From positions 1 through 64,000 of the forward strand of contig JAGBJQ010000101.1 in NCBI GenBank assembly GCA_017934385.1: a DNA stretch of 64,000 nucleotides, read 5' to 3'. Source of the DNA: Campylobacter sp. GTDB taxonomy: Bacteria; Campylobacterota; Campylobacteria; Campylobacterales; Campylobacteraceae. Within the stretch, counting starts at the first letter, position 1. The number at the start of each line of letters is the position of its first letter. Below are positions 4,080 to 33,521 of the stretch, in pieces. Position numbers and translations under genes: made by a program. Under the pieces are notes generated by a model. That model saw nothing but the letters and a program-made list of their open reading frames with translations, had not been told where the DNA came from and searched no databases.

Positions 4080-6560
4080 CTAATCCAAAATTTCCACAAT
4101 CCCATCTTTTCCATTTACGCGCACTTTTTGCCCATTTTGCAAAATTTGCATTACGCTTTTTACAGCCATGACAGCTGGGATTTTCATCTCTCTTGCGCTG
4201 ACTGCCCCATGCGATAAAACACCGCCGCTTTCTGTAATCAGCGCTTTTGCGCTATAAAAAAGTGGCGTCCAGGCTGGATTTGTCGTCCGCGCAACAAGGA
4301 TAGAGTTTGGAACAAAATTTGCAAAATCATCGCTACTTCGCACCACGCAAACACTTCCTTCTGCCACACCCATGCTAGCAGGAAGCCCTTTTAGGATTTT
4401 GGCATTTGGGTTAAACTCGCTCTTTTCATCGGCCGATAAATCCCATTTCGGAGTCAAATTTTTGTTTTTCAAATACGCGGTTTTATTCGATTGAATCTCG
4501 CTTGCCAAATTCTCATACTCACCAGATTTTACCGCGGTTTCTAGCGTTTGTAAATGTGCGAAAAATAGATCATACGGCTTGGCGATGATATGTTTTTGCG
4601 CCAATTTTTCGCCAAGTGCTTTGATGCCTTTTCTCATCATTGGCGTTAGTCTGGTGGTTTGGTAGTGTTCTTCATCATCGAGTATGGTGTAAATTTGGAC
4701 TAAATTCGCAAATTCAAGGGTAAATTCTTGCAAATTTTTTGGCACTGCGTTTAAAATTTCACTAAGGGCTTTATTTGTTTTGGCTGAAATTTCGCTGGAT
4801 TTGTTTTTGTGTTGCATAGCGGGATTGTTTAAGATATTTTTTATATTATCCAAAACTATGTGTGGCGCCTCAGCCCATGTAGGAATATACGAGTCAAACT
4901 CGACCTCTCTGTGTCCGTGCAAATCTATAAATTTTTCAAATTTGGCTTTAAAATCGCTAAATTTATCGAGTAAATTTTCGCTTAAAATTTGCCTTGAATT
5001 TCGTGAAATAAAAATATCTTTTAGCTCGCTATTTTGTGCGACCTGCGAAGCTAGACTTAAAATTTCATTATTTATCAGGCTGGTTTTAGTTTGCGCTGTG
5101 CATAGAGCATCAAACCACGAAGCAGCCCTGCTCTCATCAATCATTTGCAAAAATCGCATAAAAAATTTATAAATCATAAACTGCGTTATTGATATTGCGA
5201 TATTTGGCTTGAAATACTCTGTGCCGACATCGACTAAATTTTGGATAAATTCCCAAATTTCTTTTTCGTTTTTGTTGTCTAAATTTTGGGCTTTTAAACC
5301 GCCTATTTGCAAGAGATAATTCGATAAGTTTATATTCCAAGAATTAGGCAAAGCAAAAGCGTAGCTAAATTTTTGTTTCAAACTAGGCAAAATTTGGGCT
5401 AATTGCTCTAAATTTTTTACATTTAAAGGCGGGGTTTGCATATACAAATTTACCGCATTTTGGTTGCCATAAATGTAGTTGTCAAACATCGCAAACCATT
5501 TGCCGTTAAATGGTGGAAGCCCCATTAATCCAAACGAGTGTTTTAGCGAGATATGAAAGGCCAAATCCACATAATCCCAAGTCAGCGGAGTTATCACGCT
5601 TGGATAGCGTTCGGCTGATTCATCTCTGGTAAAATGCGGGATAATTGTTGTTATTGGGCGAGATTGCAAAAGATAGAGCTTATTATCCTTTATCGCCCAC
5701 TCTATGTCTTGGACGAAGCCGTAATGCGCGCTTGTTTTTATATTTAACTGCGCGATTTGTTTTAGCTCATCTTCGCTAAGACAAGCCAAATTTGCTAAAT
5801 TTGGCTGTATTTCGCTCTCATAAGTGCCATTTTCTCCCCATAAAATGGATTTTTGCTTGTTTGCGATAACGCTTGAAATCAAATTTAGAGAATTTTTGTC
5901 TATGTGGTATTCATCGACATCGTATTCCCCACACACCACAGACTCGCCAAGTCCGTAGTTTGCGTTGATTAAAATTTCGTCAAAATTTCCATTGACTGGA
6001 TTTATGGCAAAACTCACACCAGCTTTATCTGCAAAAATCATCTCTTGCACGACCACAGCCATATCGGCATTTTCTTGCGCAAAACCTTGTTTGTGGCGAT
6101 AGGCTATGGCGCGAGGAAGCCAGAGCGAAATGAAGCACTCTTTGATTTTTTGCGTAATTTCATCTATACCTTTTTGGTTTAAAAATGTATCGTGCGCCCC
6201 TGCAAAAGCTGAATTTGCAAGATCTTCTAGCGTAGAAGATGAGCGGACGCTGTAAGATTTGTTTGCGCCAAGTAGCGCTAAATTTTCTTTGATTTCATTT
6301 TTCAAATCATCTGGCAGAGGCAAATTTAATAGCTTTTTTCGTAAATTTTCGCTCTGTTTTTCTAAAATTTCTAAATTTTCATATTCGAAATTTAACTCTA
6401 AATTCGCATTTGCGATAAATTTTTTATACGCACTAGCTGTAACGATAAAGCCCTGTGGCACAGCAAAACCAGCTTGACTCATTTTGGCTAGGTTTGCACC
6501 TTTTCCGCCACAAAGCGCGATATTTACGGCTTTTGGGTCGTTAAATTTTAATATATTCAT
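4080..6560 (-). CDS. PEP-synthase-like / rifampicin-phosphotransferase-like dikinase of unknown substrate
   Basis: 826 aa in three parts. Residues about 1-305 form the ATP-grasp (PPDK/PEP-synthase N-terminal) domain, with GGKGANLAKMSQAGFAVPQGF near the start, the VRSSSTLEDLANSAFAG loop and the closing DIEWAIKDNKLYLLQSRPITT. Residues about 306-700 are a mostly helical domain I do not recognise, probably the acceptor-binding part. Residues about 720-826 are the swivelling phosphohistidine domain, with TESGGVLSHGAVSARE and the phospho-acceptor H784. The C-terminal PEP/pyruvate TIM barrel of true PpsA is absent. Such enzymes use ATP to make AMP and Pi and pass the beta phosphate to an acceptor via His; rifampicin phosphotransferase has the same plan. 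The start overlaps the PAP2 gene by 20 nt, so the acceptor is plausibly a lipid or polyprenol, not rifampicin (inference). Confidence 0.8.
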   Translation of the reverse strand: MNILKFNDPKAVNIALCGGKGANLAKMSQAGFAVPQGFIVTASAYKKFIANANLELNFEYENLEILEKQSENLRKKLLNLPLPDDLKNEIKENLALLGANKSYSVRSSSTLEDLANSAFAGAHDTFLNQKGIDEITQKIKECFISLWLPRAIAYRHKQGFAQENADMAVVVQEMIFADKAGVSFAINPVNGNFDEILINANYGLGESVVCGEYDVDEYHIDKNSLNLISSVIANKQKSILWGENGTYESEIQPNLANLACLSEDELKQIAQLNIKTSAHYGFVQDIEWAIKDNKLYLLQSRPITTIIPHFTRDESAERYPSVITPLTWDYVDLAFHISLKHSFGLMGLPPFNGKWFAMFDNYIYGNQNAVNLYMQTPPLNVKNLEQLAQILPSLKQKFSYAFALPNSWNINLSNYLLQIGGLKAQNLDNKNEKEIWEFIQNLVDVGTEYFKPNIAISITQFMIYKFFMRFLQMIDESRAASWFDALCTAQTKTSLINNEILSLASQVAQNSELKDIFISRNSRQILSENLLDKFSDFKAKFEKFIDLHGHREVEFDSYIPTWAEAPHIVLDNIKNILNNPAMQHKNKSSEISAKTNKALSEILNAVPKNLQEFTLEFANLVQIYTILDDEEHYQTTRLTPMMRKGIKALGEKLAQKHIIAKPYDLFFAHLQTLETAVKSGEYENLASEIQSNKTAYLKNKNLTPKWDLSADEKSEFNPNAKILKGLPASMGVAEGSVCVVRSSDDFANFVPNSILVARTTNPAWTPLFYSAKALITESGGVLSHGAVSAREMKIPAVMAVKSVMQILQNGQKVRVNGKDGIVEILD

Positions 6561-7371
6561 TTTTTCCCTTTACGCAATAAAAACAAATCGTAGCTAGCAT
6601 AATGCCTACAATGCAATCGATTAAATAATGATAGTGCAAATACACCGTAGAAACCCAAAGTAGCAGTGTTGGGATTAGCCAAATGCGAAATTGTTTTTTA
6701 TCAAATTTGAAATTAAAAAGCAAAATAAAGCACGAAACACCACAATGCAGACTTGGGAAAACATCGGTTAGATTGCTGCCTTTGGCGTAGTTTTCGTTTA
6801 ATAAATCAAAGAAAAAATATCCTTGCAAAGGGGAGTGAAATTTTTGAGCCAAAAACTCATACGGTCCGATTGCAGGGACAAAAATATAACCCAAAAACCC
6901 GGCAGCATAAAGACTCATAAGGCCGATATAAAATTTTGCGGTTAAATCTTTTTTAAAAAGATAATAGATAAAAAAGAAAAGCAGTTGTGGCAGAAATAAA
7001 AGATAAAAAAATGCAAAAATTTCAGTTAAAATTTCGCTGTGAAATTTTTGCAAATACAAACCCACAAAATCCCCAAATAGCGCACAATCAACGCTGTATA
7101 AAAATGCGTCTTTTTTACCACTAGGATTAATGAGGGGCGAAATGTATCTAAGCAAGACAAAGGTTAAATTCATCAAAACTACATAAAATCCAAAACGCAA
7201 AATTTGGCTTTTGCTAGAAATATTATAAACTATCGCACCTATGCAAACCGCGCAAAACACGCTAAATCCGTAGCCACCAAAAAACAAAAGCCTAATTAGC
7301 AAAATTCCGAAAAACGCAAGCCAGAGCATTTCATGCGGTAAGATATTTTTATAAATTTGTGCAAATTTCAT
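6541..7371 (-). CDS. PAP2-superfamily membrane phosphatase/phosphotransferase
   Basis: 276 aa, about six to eight membrane helices. The active-site motifs are those of the PAP2_3 (inositolphosphotransferase-like) branch: VPAIGPYEF (about 165-173), FPSLHCG with H209, and HYHYLIDCIVG with H248 and D252. In PAP2 enzymes the two His residues form and break a phospho-enzyme while hydrolysing or transferring lipid-linked phosphate groups. It overlaps the acyltransferase gene upstream by 23 nt and the dikinase gene downstream by 20 nt, so the three are translated as a unit. A natural reading is removal or exchange of a phosphate-bearing head group; the substrate is unknown. Confidence 0.87.
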   Translation of the reverse strand: MKFAQIYKNILPHEMLWLAFFGILLIRLLFFGGYGFSVFCAVCIGAIVYNISSKSQILRFGFYVVLMNLTFVLLRYISPLINPSGKKDAFLYSVDCALFGDFVGLYLQKFHSEILTEIFAFFYLLFLPQLLFFFIYYLFKKDLTAKFYIGLMSLYAAGFLGYIFVPAIGPYEFLAQKFHSPLQGYFFFDLLNENYAKGSNLTDVFPSLHCGVSCFILLFNFKFDKKQFRIWLIPTLLLWVSTVYLHYHYLIDCIVGIMLATICFYCVKGKNEYIKI

Positions 7372-8521
7372 TTTCTAATCTCAAAAAGTCTTTTCTTGCG
7401 TTTGGAAAAATTGCTAAATTTAAAATAGCAAAAAGGTGTTTTTTAAAAGCGCCGTATAATCTAAACCCAAATAGCGAAAAAATCAAGGCAAAAATCACAA
7501 CCAAAGCCCCAAATCCTCCACCAAAAACCACACCCAAAACAGCCAAAATAAAGTAAAAAACCGCCCCGATTCCATATCCTACAATAATTTTATATAGCGA
7601 TATAGTGTGGATTTCCTCTGATTTTTTGCCAGCGAAAAACGCACAGATTATGGGGATAAAATTTAGCGCAAATGTCGGCAAAACCACAACCGAAGTTATG
7701 AATAAAGTCCAAAAAGAAAGAGGGAGATTTTTTGGATAAATTGCGATTTTTTTGTAAAAAAGTAGATTTTTGCCTTTTATTTTTTCTTCGTAAATTTGTA
7801 AATTTTGTGTTAGATTTGTGAAATTTTGCTTTTGCAAATTTAATAAAATTTCGCCGTAATTTTTGCTCTCATCAAACAGCGTGGCTAAAATAGCGATTTT
7901 ATGCGCATTTTGCATATCTTTTTCGCTTTTGTAACTGGTTAAAATTTTTTCAAAATTTTGGGTTAAATTTGCGTGAATAGTATTTGGATTTGCAGAATTT
8001 ACGATAATTTCCTCGCCCGAATTTACAAAAACCTTTCCGCCCATACAGGTCGGATCATCGTAAAATATCGCAAACGGCGTGATTGCAAGGGATTTTTTAT
8101 TTTGTTTTACAAAGGTAGCACTAAGCGTAGAAATTCCCTTTTCGAAAGGCAAATGCGATAATCCAAGCGAACTTGTGCCCTCTGGAAATATACAAAGTGG
8201 AGCGCGATTTAGGGTGTTTAGCATATTTTTAAAGGCTTGTATATTTTTTTGTTTGTAGGTTTTTGGTTCGTCTTTTTCGCGAAAAATCGCAATTCCTGGA
8301 AATAAAATTTTTAAAAAGAAATTTCTTTGAAGGGACTTTGCAAGGGTAAAAACTGCATTTTTAAAGATGTATGAATAAACCCAGCCATCAACTGCCCCGT
8401 TTCTGTGTGAAAGAGCGAAAATTTTGGCGCACTTGGTGCGATTTGTGGCAAAATTGTCAAATTTGGTAATTTTTCGAAAATATGAATTTGCTATAATCCA
8501 AACTAAAATTTTAGAAATCAC
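7349..8521 (-). CDS. PlsC-like 1-acylglycerol-3-phosphate acyltransferase with membrane C-terminus
   Basis: 390 aa. The N-terminal half is an LPLAT/PlsC-type acyltransferase: motif I LSHRNGAVDGW (H39, D45) and motif III FPEGTSSLG (about 113-121). Motif I has five residues between His and Asp instead of the usual four. The C-terminal half (about 255-370) carries several hydrophobic helices, with long stretches rich in Gly, Val, Ile and Phe, so the protein is anchored in the membrane. The start is GTG with only a weak AG-rich site, so the exact N-terminus is uncertain. It is the first gene of a minus-strand cassette with the PAP2 and dikinase genes and presumably acylates the same lipid. It is separate from the main PlsC, which I would expect to be encoded elsewhere. 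Confidence 0.83.
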   Translation of the reverse strand: MISKILVWIIANSYFRKITKFDNFATNRTKCAKIFALSHRNGAVDGWVYSYIFKNAVFTLAKSLQRNFFLKILFPGIAIFREKDEPKTYKQKNIQAFKNMLNTLNRAPLCIFPEGTSSLGLSHLPFEKGISTLSATFVKQNKKSLAITPFAIFYDDPTCMGGKVFVNSGEEIIVNSANPNTIHANLTQNFEKILTSYKSEKDMQNAHKIAILATLFDESKNYGEILLNLQKQNFTNLTQNLQIYEEKIKGKNLLFYKKIAIYPKNLPLSFWTLFITSVVVLPTFALNFIPIICAFFAGKKSEEIHTISLYKIIVGYGIGAVFYFILAVLGVVFGGGFGALVVIFALIFSLFGFRLYGAFKKHLFAILNLAIFPNARKDFLRLENEICTNL

Positions 8522-11847: not shown

Positions 11848-13652
11848 TTGCAAATCCAAAATGATTTTTTAAAAAAACTAATTGATTTAAGGCACAAAAT
11901 CGCCTTTGGCCTTATCCTTATAATCGCTTGTGCGCTAATGGCGTATTCAAAAAGCTTTATGACAATCGCCTTTGGAATTTGCATTTTTATCTTTGCGATA
12001 AATTTGCTAAATCAAGCCCTAAGCGGTCTAAGCATAATCGAAAATTTCTTACACAGCGTAACTTCTAGCAAATTTAAAAGCTTTCTTTTTGGGTTTATCA
12101 CGACCTTTATCATGTAATCAAGTGGCCTAGTTAGCGTGCTTGCGATATCGTTTTTAAGCGCAGGGCTAATCGGGCTTAGCGCTGGGCTAGCTATCATTTG
12201 TGGGGCAAATTTGGGCACGGTTTCTGGCGGTTGGCTCTTTGCCCTTGGGCTAAAAACCCAAATCGCATACTACGCAATGCCTCTGATAATCCTAGGCTCG
12301 CTGTTTTTATTCACCAAAAACCAAAATTCCAAAAGTTTTGGCTATTTTTTATTTAGTTTAGGGCTTTTATTTTTAGGAATCCACTATATGAAGGGCGGAT
12401 TTGAGGAGATTAAAGACACGGTCGATCTAGCAAAATACGCTATGAGCGGGTTTGGCGGGCTTTTGATTTACACATTTGTGGGTATTGTCATTACGATACT
12501 GACCCAGAGCTCGCACGCCACGCTCGCCCTTGTCATCGCAGCTCTTGGCGCGTCGCAGATAAGCTACGAAAACGCAATCGCAATCGCCATTGGCTCAAAT
12601 ATCGGAAGCACAATCGTGGCAGTAATTGGCTCGCTTTCGGCGAATTTCGACGGAAAAAGGCTAATGCTTGGCCATGTGATTTTCAATGTCGCCACGGCTA
12701 TTTTGGTAATCGCGCTGATAAAATACTTCGTGCTAGCTACGGATTTGCTAAGCGCGTATGTGGGGATAAAAAGCGATGATTACGCGCTCAAACTCGCTGT
12801 TTTTCACACGATTTTTAATGTTTTTGGTTGCGCGCTTTACTATCCGCTGACCTCAAAACTTGAAATTTTACTAAACAAAATCATCACCGGTAAGGTCAAA
12901 CGCGCCAAAATTATCAAGGCAAATTTCTCGACGAAAACGCGCAAAAGGTGCCAAATACCGCATTTATCCTGCTTATCAAAGAAATGGGCAGGCTGTATTC
13001 TAACACCGTCTCAATCGTGGCAAAATCAATCGGCATTAGCAAAAATGACCTTAGCTCGGAGCTTGGCTCGGCTGAGATTATCGCCAAACGCTCGAAGCCA
13101 AAGGAGATAAATTTCGACGAGCTTTACGAAAACCGCTTCAAAGAGCTCTACTCGCAAATCACAGACTACCTCATCGGCGCTAGCGCAAACGCCAAAGACA
13201 GCGATTTGACGCGCTTTATGAATATCCGCAGGGCAAGCCTGCTTTTAGCCGAAACGCTAAAAGATGTCAAACTAATCCAGCCAAATATCTTTAAATTTAT
13301 GAGCTCATCGAACGAGCATATCCGCGCCGAATACGACAAATTGAGCGCAAAAATCGTAAAAATGCTCCGCATTATGGAGAATTTGCGCGATTTCGAAATT
13401 GATAGCAAAGAGGGGATGAAGGAGCTTAGGGCGCTTTTTGAAGAATACCGCAAAAGCGCGCTTGCACCCGATAAACTTCTAGCCGAAAAGCTCATTTCAA
13501 ACAAAATGGCGACCTCGCTGATGAACGATATGGAAATCGTCAATGAAATCACTTCGAGGCTTTTAAAAATCGTGGAAATTACATTTAATTACGGCAAAGA
13601 AAACGATGATTTTGAAATCATCCGCGATAATCTGCGCCCAAAAGAGGCGTGA
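11848..13652 (+). pseudogene. Na/Pi cotransporter family protein (NptA-like), broken by a stop codon and a frameshift
   Basis: Three reading-frame pieces together make one PNaS-family transporter with a C-terminal PhoU-like domain. Piece 1 (11848-12117; TTG start behind AAGGAAAAA) ends ...FITTFIM at a TAA (12115-12117). The same frame goes on SSGLVSVLAISFLSAGLIGL, so the stop replaces the Gln of the family's QSS motif (CAA to TAA). Piece 2 (to about 12910) holds the second repeat with ILTQSSHATLALV. At a run of four As (12907-12910) the frame is lost. Piece 3 (from 12912: YQGKFLDENAQKVPNTAF...) supplies the helical PhoU-like domain (about 13110-13640). One added A would restore the frame. The intact protein would import phosphate with sodium. 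Two independent lesions favour a true pseudogene, though sequence error is possible. Confidence 0.85.
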
Positions 13653-28967: not shown

Positions 28968-30200
28968 ATGTTAGTTGAATTTAGAGTAAAAAATTTTTTA
29001 TCTATTCAAGACGAGCAGGTTTTAAGCCTAGTAGCTAGTAATGACAACGAACATTTAAATTCTACCTTTGAAACTCCAAATAAGAAATTTAGATTGTTAA
29101 AAAGCGTTGCTATTTATGGTGCAAATGCTTCTGGAAAGTCAAATATCATAAAAGCAATAGACACAATGTCTAAAATCATAAAAGCTAGTGTAAATACCCA
29201 AATAGGAATAAAATTACCAGTTGTACCATTTTTGCTTGGAGATAATGATAACGAACCAAGCGAATTCGAAATTACATTTTTTATAGGCGAAGTGCGTTAT
29301 CAGTATGGTTTTTCGGCAACACAAAAAAGAATTTGCGATGAGTGGCTTTTGGTTTATGAAACACATATTGCACAAACTTGGTTTGAACGACATTATGATG
29401 GTAATAATAGAAAATATAATTGGAAATTTAGTGCAAAATTGAAAGGTAAAAAAGAGCTATGGAAAGATAGCACAAGAGAAAATGCTCTATTTTTATCAAC
29501 AGCAGTTCAACTAAATAGCGAACAATTAAAGCCTATTTTTAATTATTTTAGTAGCAGTTCTGATAATTTAACAACGGAAAAATTATACAAGGATAATAAA
29601 TATAGAAATGAAATAGTAAATTCGCTAAAAGCAATTGATTTAGATATTGAAAATATCGAAGTAGAAGAAAAAGATTTTTTTATTGACATTGATAAATTAC
29701 CAAATGATTTTCCAATTGAGTTAAAGAGTTTTTTTACTAAAAATGCTCCAAAAAAAATGTTAAACACATTAACACAGCATCTAAATCAAAATGGTAAGAT
29801 TGTAAAATTTGATTTAGATGTGGAGTCGGGCGGAACAAAACATTTTTTTAAGATTATAGGTCCATTATTAAATTTCTTAGAAAGTGATGATTTTACCATT
29901 GTTGATGAACTAGAACTTGGTTTTCACCCATATTTAACCAAATTTGTAATCGATTTGTTTAATAATCCAAAAACAAACAAAAACAACGCTCAACTCATCT
30001 TTACTACGCATGAAACAAGCGTTTTAAACAAAGATGTGTTTAGAAAAGACCAAATTTATTTTTGCGAGAAGAAAAATAAAGCTACACAGCTTTATTCGTT
30101 GCTTGAATTTAAACCAAGAAAAGACGCTCAAAACTGGGAAAAATCATATCTTGGTGGTCGTTTTGGAGCTGTTCCGTTTTTTAGCGAATTTGAGCTATAA
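28968..30200 (+). CDS. rloA: RloA-like AAA ATPase (AbiLi-type)
   Basis: 410 aa. SMC/ABC-type ATPase of the AAA15 family: MLVEFRVKNFLSIQDEQVLSL, Walker A GANASGKSN (51-59), signature-like VESGGTKHFF, Walker B FTIVDELELGFHP (D313, E314), H-switch FTTHE (H348) and the family ending EKSYLGGRFGAVPFF. Together with the RloB gene 11 nt downstream it forms the RloA-RloB pair first noted inside Campylobacter type I restriction loci, equivalent to AbiL abortive infection. No restriction genes are near. AT content is visibly above the flanks, with many ata and aat codons, which points to transfer. The pair has moved in between rnc and aroC. Confidence 0.88.
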   Translation: MLVEFRVKNFLSIQDEQVLSLVASNDNEHLNSTFETPNKKFRLLKSVAIYGANASGKSNIIKAIDTMSKIIKASVNTQIGIKLPVVPFLLGDNDNEPSEFEITFFIGEVRYQYGFSATQKRICDEWLLVYETHIAQTWFERHYDGNNRKYNWKFSAKLKGKKELWKDSTRENALFLSTAVQLNSEQLKPIFNYFSSSSDNLTTEKLYKDNKYRNEIVNSLKAIDLDIENIEVEEKDFFIDIDKLPNDFPIELKSFFTKNAPKKMLNTLTQHLNQNGKIVKFDLDVESGGTKHFFKIIGPLLNFLESDDFTIVDELELGFHPYLTKFVIDLFNNPKTNKNNAQLIFTTHETSVLNKDVFRKDQIYFCEKKNKATQLYSLLEFKPRKDAQNWEKSYLGGRFGAVPFFSEFEL

Positions 30201-30211
30201 AAGGGCTAAAA

Positions 30212-30889
30212 ATGCGAACAGGCAATAAAAATTTAAAGAGAAAACAAAATACACGCGATATTAAAGAAAATATTTTGATAGTTTGTGAAGGTAAAAAAAC
30301 CGAACCAAACTATTTTAATGCTTTAAAAAGAAAATTTAGGTCTCAAACAGCTACAATAGATATAGATGAAAACTCAAACTCAGCACCTATAAGTGTCGTA
30401 GAATACGCTATAAAAAAAGCCGAAGAAGCTCAAAAAGACAAACAAAAAGAAACTTACGATATTATTTACTGTGTATTTGACAAAGATACTCATACAAGTT
30501 TAGCACAAGCATTAGATAAATTACCAAAAGATAAAAAATACGGAGCCGAATTTTATGCTATTTTATCTGTGCCGTGCTTTGAATTTTGGATTTTGCTTCA
30601 TTTTGATACCATTCTTCCAAATTTTTACAAAGATAAACACCCGTGTAAAAATTTAATAAAAAATTATCTTAAAAAATATATAAAAAATTATGAAAAAGGC
30701 TATAACGATTTTTCGCAAATCATTACCGATGAAAATTTGGACAAAGCAACAAAATTTGCTATACAAATTTGCGAACAATTAGGCATAGAAGAACCGGACA
30801 ACAAAGAAGCATTAAGAAAATTTTATAGTGATGAAAGCTCTTTTACAAATGCTTTTTTAGTGGTAGAAAAATTTAAAGAAATCTCATAA
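30212..30889 (+). CDS. rloB: RloB-family protein (AbiLii-like, Toprim-type effector)
   Basis: 225 aa. It has the RloB pattern: [19 protein letters not shown] (E26 and E31) and [13 protein letters not shown] with a DxD pair (D90, D92), the acidic layout of Toprim nucleases. [13 protein letters not shown] follows. In the AbiL and Rlo pairs the ATPase senses or regulates, and RloB is the presumed nuclease effector that halts growth of infected cells. It is 11 nt after rloA and 11 nt before aroC, so all are probably on one mRNA. The nuclease activity is inferred from the motifs only. Confidence 0.86.
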
Positions 30890-30900
30890 CGGAGAAATTT

Positions 30901-31971
30901 ATGAATACTTTTGGCATAAAACTACGACTTACGACTTTTGGGGAGAGCCACGGCGTGGCGATTGGTGGCGTTTTGGACGGCTTTCCGGCGGGTGTAAAAA
31001 TCGATACTAAATTTTTACAAGCCGAACTAGATAAACGCAAACCGGGCGGTAAATTTGCCACTTCTCGCAAAGAAAGCGATGAGGTGCAGATTTTAAGCGG
31101 CGTGTTTGACGGGCTCAGCACGGGTGCGCCGATAGGATTTGTGATTTACAACGCAAATCAGCACTCAAAGGACTATGAAAATTTAAAAGAGCTTTTTCGC
31201 CCAGGACACGCTGATTTTGGCTATTTTGCTAAATACGGAGTGCGAGATCACAGAGGAGGTGGGCGAAGCTCGGCAAGAGAAACGGCGATAAGGGTCGCAG
31301 GTGGGGCATTTGCGCAGATGCTTTTAAATGAATTTGGCGTGAGCGTGAAAAGCGGAGTTTTAAGCGTAGGCGAGATTTGCGGGGAAAATTTAGACTTCGA
31401 AAATGCCGATAATAGCGAGATTTTCGCACTTGATAAGGGTGTGGAGAATTCGCAAAAAGAGCTTATCGCAAATTTAAAGAAAAAAGGCGAAAGCATGGGA
31501 GCAAGTGTGCTGACAATCGCAAATGGCGTGCCAAAGGGGCTTGGAGAGCCACTTTATGCTAAGACTGACGCGTTAATCGGTGGCGCTTACATGGGGCTAA
31601 ACGGCGTAAAAGCCGTAGAGATCGGCGACGGCGTGGAAGTTTCGCATAAATTTGGAAGCGAAAATAATGATTTTATGGATAAAAATGGCTTTAAATCAAA
31701 CCACGCAGGGGGAATTCTAGGCGGTATCACAACAGGGGAGCAAATCATCATAAAAACGTATTTTAAGCCAACGCCTAGCATTTTTGCCGATCAGCCGACG
31801 ATTGATAAAAACGGCGATGAAACGATTTGTTCGCTTCGTGGTCGCCACGACCCTTGTATCGGAGTGCGTGGCAGTGTCGTCTGCACGGCACTTTTACGGC
31901 TAATCTTAGCCGATTTACTTTTGCTAAACGCAAGTGCAAATTTGGGGAATTTAAAGAAAATTTATGGGTAA
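30901..31971 (+). CDS. aroC: Chorismate synthase
   Basis: 356 aa. AroC converts EPSP to chorismate with reduced FMN, the last step of the shikimate pathway. Motifs: [50 protein letters not shown], and [25 protein letters not shown]-terminal [15 protein letters not shown] is also typical. The gene is flanked on both sides, at 11 and 14 nt, by defence-like genes that its C. jejuni counterpart lacks. Its own codon use (gcg, atc, gaa) matches the native genes. A CGGAG site precedes the ATG. Confidence 0.97.
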
Positions 31972-31985
31972 ATTTAGGAGCTAAA

Positions 31986-33521
31986 ATGATAAAAATAAAA
32001 TCAATTAAATTTAAAGACCACGATATTTTAGGAGATTTAGAACTAGATTTTTGCGATAAAGACGGCAATCCTGCCGATACAATCATCATCGCAGGAGAAA
32101 ACGGCACAGGTAAAACGACTATTTTGGAAGAGATTGAAAAAATTTTAACATATAATTTTGATAAAAATGTCTCGTATGAAATAGTGAATAATGGTAATAT
32201 ATTTAAATATGAAAATGGACAATTTTGGAATAATAACAATTCGGTGAATTATTCACCTAGTGTATATATTGGGGGAGTTTCGGCAAGTAATTTTTCAAAT
32301 AAAAGCGATTCTGACCGATTTATAGAATCATCAAATTTTAAAAAACCATTATTTGCAACAGTAAATATAAATTTTTCACAAAACAAAAAAATTAGAAATT
32401 TTGGTAGCAACAATATAGATATAGACGATGATGAAAGAAAAAAATTTACTGATAAAACAGCTGAAAACATAAAGCAATTATTTGCAGATATGATAAATTA
32501 TGATTATAAAATAAGAGCAGAAAAGTATGACGAAATATTCAAAAATGCAGATATTATAAATTCTGATGATAAAGTAAAAGTAGAAAAAATAACCAAAAAG
32601 ATACAAGATGAAATGAATACAAATTTGACACTTAAAATGGATAGATTTAAGAAAGTTTTTAATAAAGATTTGTTTAAAGAGTTGAAATTCAAAGGAATAG
32701 ATAATATTGATAATAATATAGAAATCTTATTTGAAAAAAACGGCAAAGAAATTTCTATCGATGATTTAAGTTCGGGCGAAAAGCAAATTGTATTTCGTGG
32801 AGCATTTTTGTTGCGAGATAAAGAAGCTTTAAATGGTGCGGTTGTTTTGATTGATGAGCCTGAAATCAGTATGCACCCAAAATGGCAAGAAAAAATTTTA
32901 GGTTATTACCAAAAATTATTTGTCGATGGTGATAAACAAACTTCTCAAATAATTGTATCGACGCACTCAAATTTTGTCATAGAAAAAGCGTTAGAACTAG
33001 ATAATTCCATTATTATTGCCCTACAAGAAAATAATGATAAACCTAAAAAAATAATGAAAAATGACGTAACATTTATTTTACCAAGTGTTACTGCGGCAGA
33101 AGTTAATTATCATATTTTTGATATTGCAAGCATAGATTTTCATATACAATTATTTGGTTATTTTCAAAGCATAACAGGAATAATTCAAATAAAAGATGTA
33201 GATAATAAAATAAAAAATAATCAAAAATTATTACCTAAAGTAGATAATAAAATAAAAAATAATCAAGAATTATTACCTGAAAATGTTTTAAAAGATAGTC
33301 AAGGGAATTCTTATAAATGGGAATATACTGATAAAAAAGGAAATAAAACTGAGTATGATACAATCTGTTGCTTTATCAGAAATGCCATAGACCACCCTGA
33401 AAATTTACCAAATCAAAAGCAAAACGGTCTTAAAGCAAAATATACAGACGATGAATTAAGATATTCTATTGAAATTTTGATAGAATTGGTAAATTTAGCA
33501 AAACAAAATAACTTAAATTAA
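31986..33521 (+). CDS. AAA ATPase with C-terminal HEPN-like RxxxxH motif
   Basis: 511 aa from the ATG at 31986, with TTAGGAG upstream. It is an ABC/SMC-like ATPase: Walker A GENGTGKT (37-44), signature LSSGEK (261-266), Walker B VVLIDEPE (about 286-292), H-switch VSTHSNF (H327). Residues 50-255 form a long, Asn/Lys-rich insert between the two halves of the ATPase. Residues 405-432 are a 14-residue tandem repeat (VDNKIKNNQ...). The C-terminal part has FIRNAIDHPEN (R465, H470) and YTDDELRYSIEILIELV, which looks like the RX4-6H motif of HEPN ribonucleases. A partner gene is not seen. A defence or toxin role is an inference. AT-rich and placed between aroC and an acetyltransferase. Confidence 0.75.
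   Translation: MIKIKSIKFKDHDILGDLELDFCDKDGNPADTIIIAGENGTGKTTILEEIEKILTYNFDKNVSYEIVNNGNIFKYENGQFWNNNNSVNYSPSVYIGGVSASNFSNKSDSDRFIESSNFKKPLFATVNINFSQNKKIRNFGSNNIDIDDDERKKFTDKTAENIKQLFADMINYDYKIRAEKYDEIFKNADIINSDDKVKVEKITKKIQDEMNTNLTLKMDRFKKVFNKDLFKELKFKGIDNIDNNIEILFEKNGKEISIDDLSSGEKQIVFRGAFLLRDKEALNGAVVLIDEPEISMHPKWQEKILGYYQKLFVDGDKQTSQIIVSTHSNFVIEKALELDNSIIIALQENNDKPKKIMKNDVTFILPSVTAAEVNYHIFDIASIDFHIQLFGYFQSITGIIQIKDVDNKIKNNQKLLPKVDNKIKNNQELLPENVLKDSQGNSYKWEYTDKKGNKTEYDTICCFIRNAIDHPENLPNQKQNGLKAKYTDDELRYSIEILIELVNLAKQNNLN
33198..33281 (+). repeat. 42-bp tandem duplication inside the AAA ATPase gene
   Basis: Two adjacent 42-bp units (33198-33239 and 33240-33281) differ at only two bases, giving the peptides VDNKIKNNQKLLPK and VDNKIKNNQELLPE. 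The unit is a multiple of three, so copy number can change without a frameshift. Confidence 0.85.

Follow-up and report, generated by a model that had tools for sequence, protein, structure and literature searches.

Three genes of a Campylobacter sp. contig, encoding an acyltransferase, a PAP2 membrane protein and a dikinase, overlap on one strand; the question that this locus raises is whether the three form a unit and, if so, which chemistry they serve together. The window is the whole stretch of DNA that was analysed (64,000 nucleotides), and positions refer to it. The trio refers to the three genes in any genome. RPH, rifampicin phosphotransferase. The features are as follows, the parts of the dikinase being given after the genes.

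7349..8521, minus strand: LPLAT-type acyltransferase gene (390 aa, GTG start; Pfam Acyltransferase PF01553).
6541..7371, minus strand: AUR1-like PAP2_3 membrane protein gene (276 aa; Pfam PAP2_3 PF14378).
4080..6560, minus strand: single-chain dikinase gene (826 aa, soluble; Pfam PF01326 and PF00391).
5643..6515, minus strand: ATP-grasp domain of the dikinase (residues 16-306, PF01326; conserved R106, E287, Q299, R301).
4401..5642, minus strand: helical acceptor domain of the dikinase (residues 307-720), counterpart of the rifampicin-binding domain of RPH.
4665..4679, minus strand: D628-D629-x-E631-H632 of the dikinase, in place of R666-E667-x-x-K670 of RPH-Lm.
4101..4310, minus strand: swivelling phosphohistidine domain of the dikinase (residues 751-820, PF00391).
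4209..4211, minus strand: codon of the catalytic His784 of the dikinase, aligned with His825 of RPH-Lm.

The open reading frames were found again at the coordinates given by the first-pass annotation, with the overlaps that it had described: 23 nt between the 3′ end of the acyltransferase gene and the PAP2 gene, and 20 nt between the 3′ end of the PAP2 gene and the dikinase gene. The G+C content of the trio (0.363; window, 0.402) proves nothing by itself, since 14% of equal-sized stretches are equally low. None of the three genes matches a PADLOC defence model. Elsewhere in the window, in a region of low GC content, a pair of genes immediately upstream of an aroC-like (chorismate synthase) gene matches the AbiLi (6.5e-97) and AbiLii (6.9e-26) defence models (28968-30889). 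The aroC-like gene is followed by an AAA ATPase gene (31827-33521) that resembles the PtuA and AriA families; no obvious nuclease partner adjoining it was seen in the window. A Na/Pi cotransporter-like gene is broken into three ORFs (11848-13652), whereas it is a single ORF of 601 aa in a genome of the same species (L075:14742-16547, G070); the split corresponds either to indels in the assembly of the window or to a recent pseudogene.

Co-occurrence of the three families beyond close relatives had been set as a test of the link between them. The trio recurs in seven phyla with the same gene order, usually with overlapping genes and with unrelated flanking genes, and is therefore more than a chance association. 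Fifteen loci were recovered when genomes were scanned with the dikinase, most at 45-65% identity; their titles name Neisseriaceae, Cardiobacteriaceae, Alphaproteobacteria, Helicobacter, Elusimicrobium, Synergistaceae, Desulfobulbaceae, Acidobacteria and Verrucomicrobia. The acyltransferase and PAP2 genes are found upstream of the dikinase gene in conserved order, except at the Helicobacter loci and at two loci of Verrucomicrobia (L029, L034), the latter two being cut or rearranged within their assemblies. Flanking genes vary from lineage to lineage, and no other lipid gene accompanies the cassette at the loci read. The unit is rare across the whole-genome searches (counts include the starting genomes): the dikinase is encoded by 8 of 397 Campylobacterota genomes, and the trio-type PAP2 protein by 3/349 genomes of the phylum of Neisseriaceae, 3/241 of Verrucomicrobia, 1/247 of the phylum of Desulfobulbaceae, 5/150 of Elusimicrobia, 1/149 of Acidobacteria and 1/121 of the phylum of Synergistaceae. 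Every remaining carrier of a trio-type PAP2 gene whose region was read also has the acyltransferase and dikinase genes, and the acyltransferase is present in all genomes reached through the dikinase (18/18; the Helicobacter copy is at an unlinked locus). No substitute kinase gene was found beside an acyltransferase-PAP2 pair; the outgroup PAP2 genes read are in other contexts. Carriers outside Campylobacterota are mostly MAGs, and the dikinase genes of L021, L033 and G954 contain stops or frameshifts. The trio is not an assembly artefact, since it is present in cultured Helicobacter isolates and in the single-contig genomes G070 and G400.

The Helicobacteraceae provide a case of joint decay. 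The acyltransferase is encoded by four of 121 genomes of this family, three of which have an intact dikinase; the fourth is that of H. labetoulli. The acyltransferase gene of H. magdeburgensis and H. cinaedi is located at a separate chromosomal site, beside a pseudouridine synthase gene, and their PAP2 and dikinase genes remain adjacent. In H. labetoulli, the PAP2 and dikinase genes are reduced to fragments, and the unlinked acyltransferase gene (L071:7299-8777) shows FLEGT instead of FPEGT and a C-terminal frameshift. The frameshift could be explained by a sequencing error, the substitution less easily. All three genes having decayed at two loci of one genome, this joint loss amounts to a natural experiment that strongly supports their working together. 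The three genes are one unit, inherited and lost together.

Distances in the three gene trees are correlated (Mantel r 0.94, 0.92 and 0.86; 0/2000 permutations). This agreement is partly due to shared species history, which adds to the correlation, so that incongruence with taxonomy is more telling. The copy of the window clusters with those of Neisseriaceae and Cardiobacteriaceae, whereas those of G114, G243 and G400, three further genomes of the window's family, cluster with that of a Helicobacteraceae genome (G048). The agreement of the trees and the placement of the window copy thus argue for transfer as a unit, and the pattern fits repeated transfers of the whole trio. At loci L072, L073 and L074, from three genomes of the same family as the window, the trio immediately follows secY within the ribosomal operon; the window copy is placed head to head with the rpsM-rplQ portion of the same ribosomal region. 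This neighbourhood is common to the four loci, though the tree does not make the window copy a sister of the others.

The dikinase carries PPDK_N (PF01326, 1e-87) and PEP-utilizers (PF00391, 4e-21) domains; no Pfam domain corresponding to a PEP/pyruvate barrel was found in it. The first-pass annotation was thus right to describe an ATP-grasp plus phosphohistidine enzyme devoid of this barrel. PEP synthase and PPDK were considered and ruled out: the C-terminal PEP/pyruvate-binding barrel is missing and the score is under the PEP_synth cut-off. The SGGxLSHGA motif, which includes His784, is intact. The layout of rifampicin phosphotransferases, also proposed at that stage, is borne out by the order of three domains (ATP-grasp, RIF-binding, swivel with a C-terminal catalytic His) and by the fold. 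RPH is the best full-length solved match of the dikinase; its structure (5hv1) matches the model end to end (E 1.8e-38, 898 columns) with a low TM-score, which is probably due to domains arranged differently and to the pTM of the model (0.58). At the sequence level, most of RPH-Lm is covered, residues 3-317 and 425-826 of the dikinase aligning with it at about 26% identity, and Thr493 and Phe450 correspond to Thr523 and Phe479. The score reached with the NCBIfam RPH equivalog (NF041857) is 376.8 bits for a cut-off of 999, and a plasmid search with the dikinase gave only distant RPH-like matches. Characterised relatives release AMP as they phosphorylate their substrates, which are alcohols of antibiotic or aromatic nature: rifampicin, phenols and hydroxyacetophenones (PMC4844700, PMC12167813).

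Comparison of the middle domain with that of RPH had been suggested as a check. The alignment does run end to end in the fold, but the acceptor residues of RPH are replaced. Alanine substitutions of R666 or E667 abolish the activity of RPH-Lm, and K670 is the third acceptor-site residue compared (PMC4844700); the dikinase has D628, D629 and H632 at these positions. The motif YTxLDDxEHYxT[TA]R is found in all 22 trio sequences that cover the site (two Elusimicrobia sequences end before it), D-D-x-E-H being invariant. The R-E-x-x-K residues are kept, as L-R-E-M-A-K, in a non-trio RPH-like dikinase of the same order (L003), so that the change to D-D-x-E-H appears to mark the trio clade (one comparison, L003, plus RPH-Lm). 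Since R-E-x-x-K is replaced by this invariant motif, the enzyme is, judging from its sequence, an RPH-type small-molecule dikinase of a distinct subfamily and not an RPH. Since none of the trio members covering the site retains any of these three RPH residues, phosphorylation of rifampicin is unlikely.

The PAP2 protein (PAP2_3 PF14378, E 7e-19) has about seven predicted membrane segments. Both catalytic motifs of AUR1-type PAP2_3 proteins, FPSLH and YLHYHYLID, are intact, which includes the His residues reported initially. It had been called a lipid phosphatase: the PAP2_3 family stands, but the protein seems to resemble a head-group transferase more than a plain phosphatase, the best solved-structure match of its profile being the inositol-phosphorylceramide synthase AUR1 (9vj3, 2e-8). 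Its score with the PhinosDhcerSyn model is 24.3 bits (cut-off, 480). The nearest PAP2_3 relatives outside the trio, from Desulfobacterota and Acidobacteria, often have serine palmitoyltransferase-like, SDR and GNAT genes as neighbours, as would be expected in gene clusters for ceramide-type lipids. The Desulfobacterota loci L135-L140 show these neighbours; their PAP2_3 proteins are candidate phospho-head-group enzymes for bacterial ceramide-type lipids. Likeness to AUR1 and outgroup gene context point to head-group chemistry on a lipid. They do not single out ceramide as the acceptor of the trio, since a close serine palmitoyltransferase is missing from several trio genomes. Genes of this type are found in trio genomes of Elusimicrobia and in G418; no close one was found in those of Campylobacterota, Neisseriaceae and Desulfobulbaceae. 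A sphingoid-base requirement is unsupported, trio genomes being found both with and without such genes. The NF047600 cut-off was reached by no genome searched, including those with the outgroup clusters.

The match of the acyltransferase to its family is weak (PF01553, E 1.5e-7, 31.8 bits for a cut-off of 23). The membrane C-terminus noticed in the first-pass annotation corresponds to two strong hydrophobic segments (residues 278-296 and 325-343). The assignment to LPLATs of PlsC type agrees with the Pfam match and with FPEGT (in FPEGTSSL); it does not hold for the His motif, HRNGAVDG (H39, D45), which is HX5D and not the HX4D of PlsC. PlsC of T. maritima (5kym) is the best solved match both by sequence and by fold, both being weak, and the fold search with the model gave nothing beyond it.

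We give about an even chance to the reading that the three enzymes form a cassette, acquired by horizontal transfer, whose function is to make or remodel a membrane lipid. The lipid part of this reading would follow from two family assignments, one of which is the weak acyltransferase match, and the lack of a membrane segment in the dikinase counts against it. The acyltransferase would add a fatty acyl chain to a (lyso)lipid or a glycerol-type alcohol. The AUR1-like protein would transfer or remove a phosphate-bearing head group by means of its His/Asp residues. His784 of the dikinase would accept the beta-phosphate from ATP, with AMP and Pi as by-products; this phosphate may then be swung to the helical domain and passed to a hydroxyl of a lipid intermediate or of a head group. 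The more specific claim, held tentatively and with somewhat less than even confidence, is that this enzyme is the first dikinase of a lipid pathway: an AMP-forming enzyme of RPH fold with a D-D-x-E-H site, which would act with an AUR1-like transferase and an acyltransferase in making an undescribed phospholipid, as a three-gene unit spreading across phyla. As had been presumed, the literature searched gave no description of a pathway with this trio. If the lipid reading is right, RPH-type dikinases, so far known for antibiotics and phenols, would gain a new kind of substrate, and an undescribed membrane lipid would be made by sporadic gut, rumen and environmental bacteria, among them Helicobacter cinaedi and H. 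magdeburgensis, which are in culture. With its three genes, the cassette is both compact and self-contained.

The lipid-pathway role is favoured overall, and its main rival is a version in which the head group is activated: the dikinase would phosphorylate a small, soluble compound, an alcohol or a polyol such as might be acquired from the gut or rumen, and the PAP2 protein and the acyltransferase would install it on a lipid, giving one of phosphatidyl-X type. Small molecules are the substrates of those relatives of the dikinase that have been characterised (PMC4844700, PMC12167813). The enzyme itself is soluble, with no predicted membrane segment, its invariant D-D-x-E-H could bind a polar polyol, and several carriers were sampled from the rumen or gut. 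However, the phospho-head-group donor of AUR1-type enzymes is a phospholipid and not a free phosphate ester, and no uptake or head-group gene is found near the trio at the loci read, which makes this version unlikely, though it deserves some weight. A cycle of recycling is improbable: the PAP2 protein would free diacylglycerol or polyprenol and the dikinase would rephosphorylate it, acting as a substitute for DgkA or for a polyprenol kinase. AUR1-type transfer yields diacylglycerol, which an adjacent kinase would return to phosphatidic acid, and no DgkA match was obtained in some carriers, such as Elusimicrobia. DgkA is nevertheless kept by most of the trio genomes searched, that of the window and all Campylobacterota carriers included, so that simple replacement of DAG kinase, or DAG rescue, is unlikely and unsupported; the acyltransferase would also be left unexplained. 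Slightly less probable still is a ligase or condensing enzyme comparable to PigC and RedH, which would activate a carbonyl and join two lipid building blocks with no stable phosphate ester: the loss of the usual acceptor-phosphate Arg agrees with it and the NCBIfam models of both enzymes match the same domains, but their scores (348 and 296 bits) are far under the cut-offs (1300 and 1350) and lower than that of the RPH model (377 bits). That the dikinase is a rifampicin resistance gene merely adjoining two lipid genes is very improbable, its best solved match being outweighed by the equivalog score, by the Asp residues at the acceptor site and by the consistent linkage to both lipid genes.

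The preferred reading, a lipid cassette, can be placed among known systems as follows. The dikinase shares with RPH-Lm (PDB 5hv1, 5fbs) the domain order, the catalytic His and a near-full-length structural match; it differs in its acceptor site (D628, D629, H632 for R666, E667, K670) and in being constantly associated with an acyltransferase and a PAP2 gene. It shares with the two-component enzymes HpeHI, CreHI and PpsAB an ATP-grasp domain, a swivel His, an RPH-like substrate domain and AMP formation (PMC12167813), and the structure of HpeI (9goj) matches its model in the fold search; unlike them, it is a single chain, with lipid enzymes as partners and no aromatic catabolism genes nearby. 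The PAP2 protein has the PAP2_3 fold and the PSLH and HYxxD motifs of AUR1 and of the PAP2_3 proteins of bacterial sphingolipid-type clusters; it differs from them by a score under the PhinosDhcerSyn cut-off and by a cassette devoid of serine palmitoyltransferase. The acyltransferase has the FPEGT motif of PlsC (T. maritima, 5kym) and other LPLATs, from which it is distinguished by HX5D in place of HX4D and by an additional C-terminal helical membrane part.
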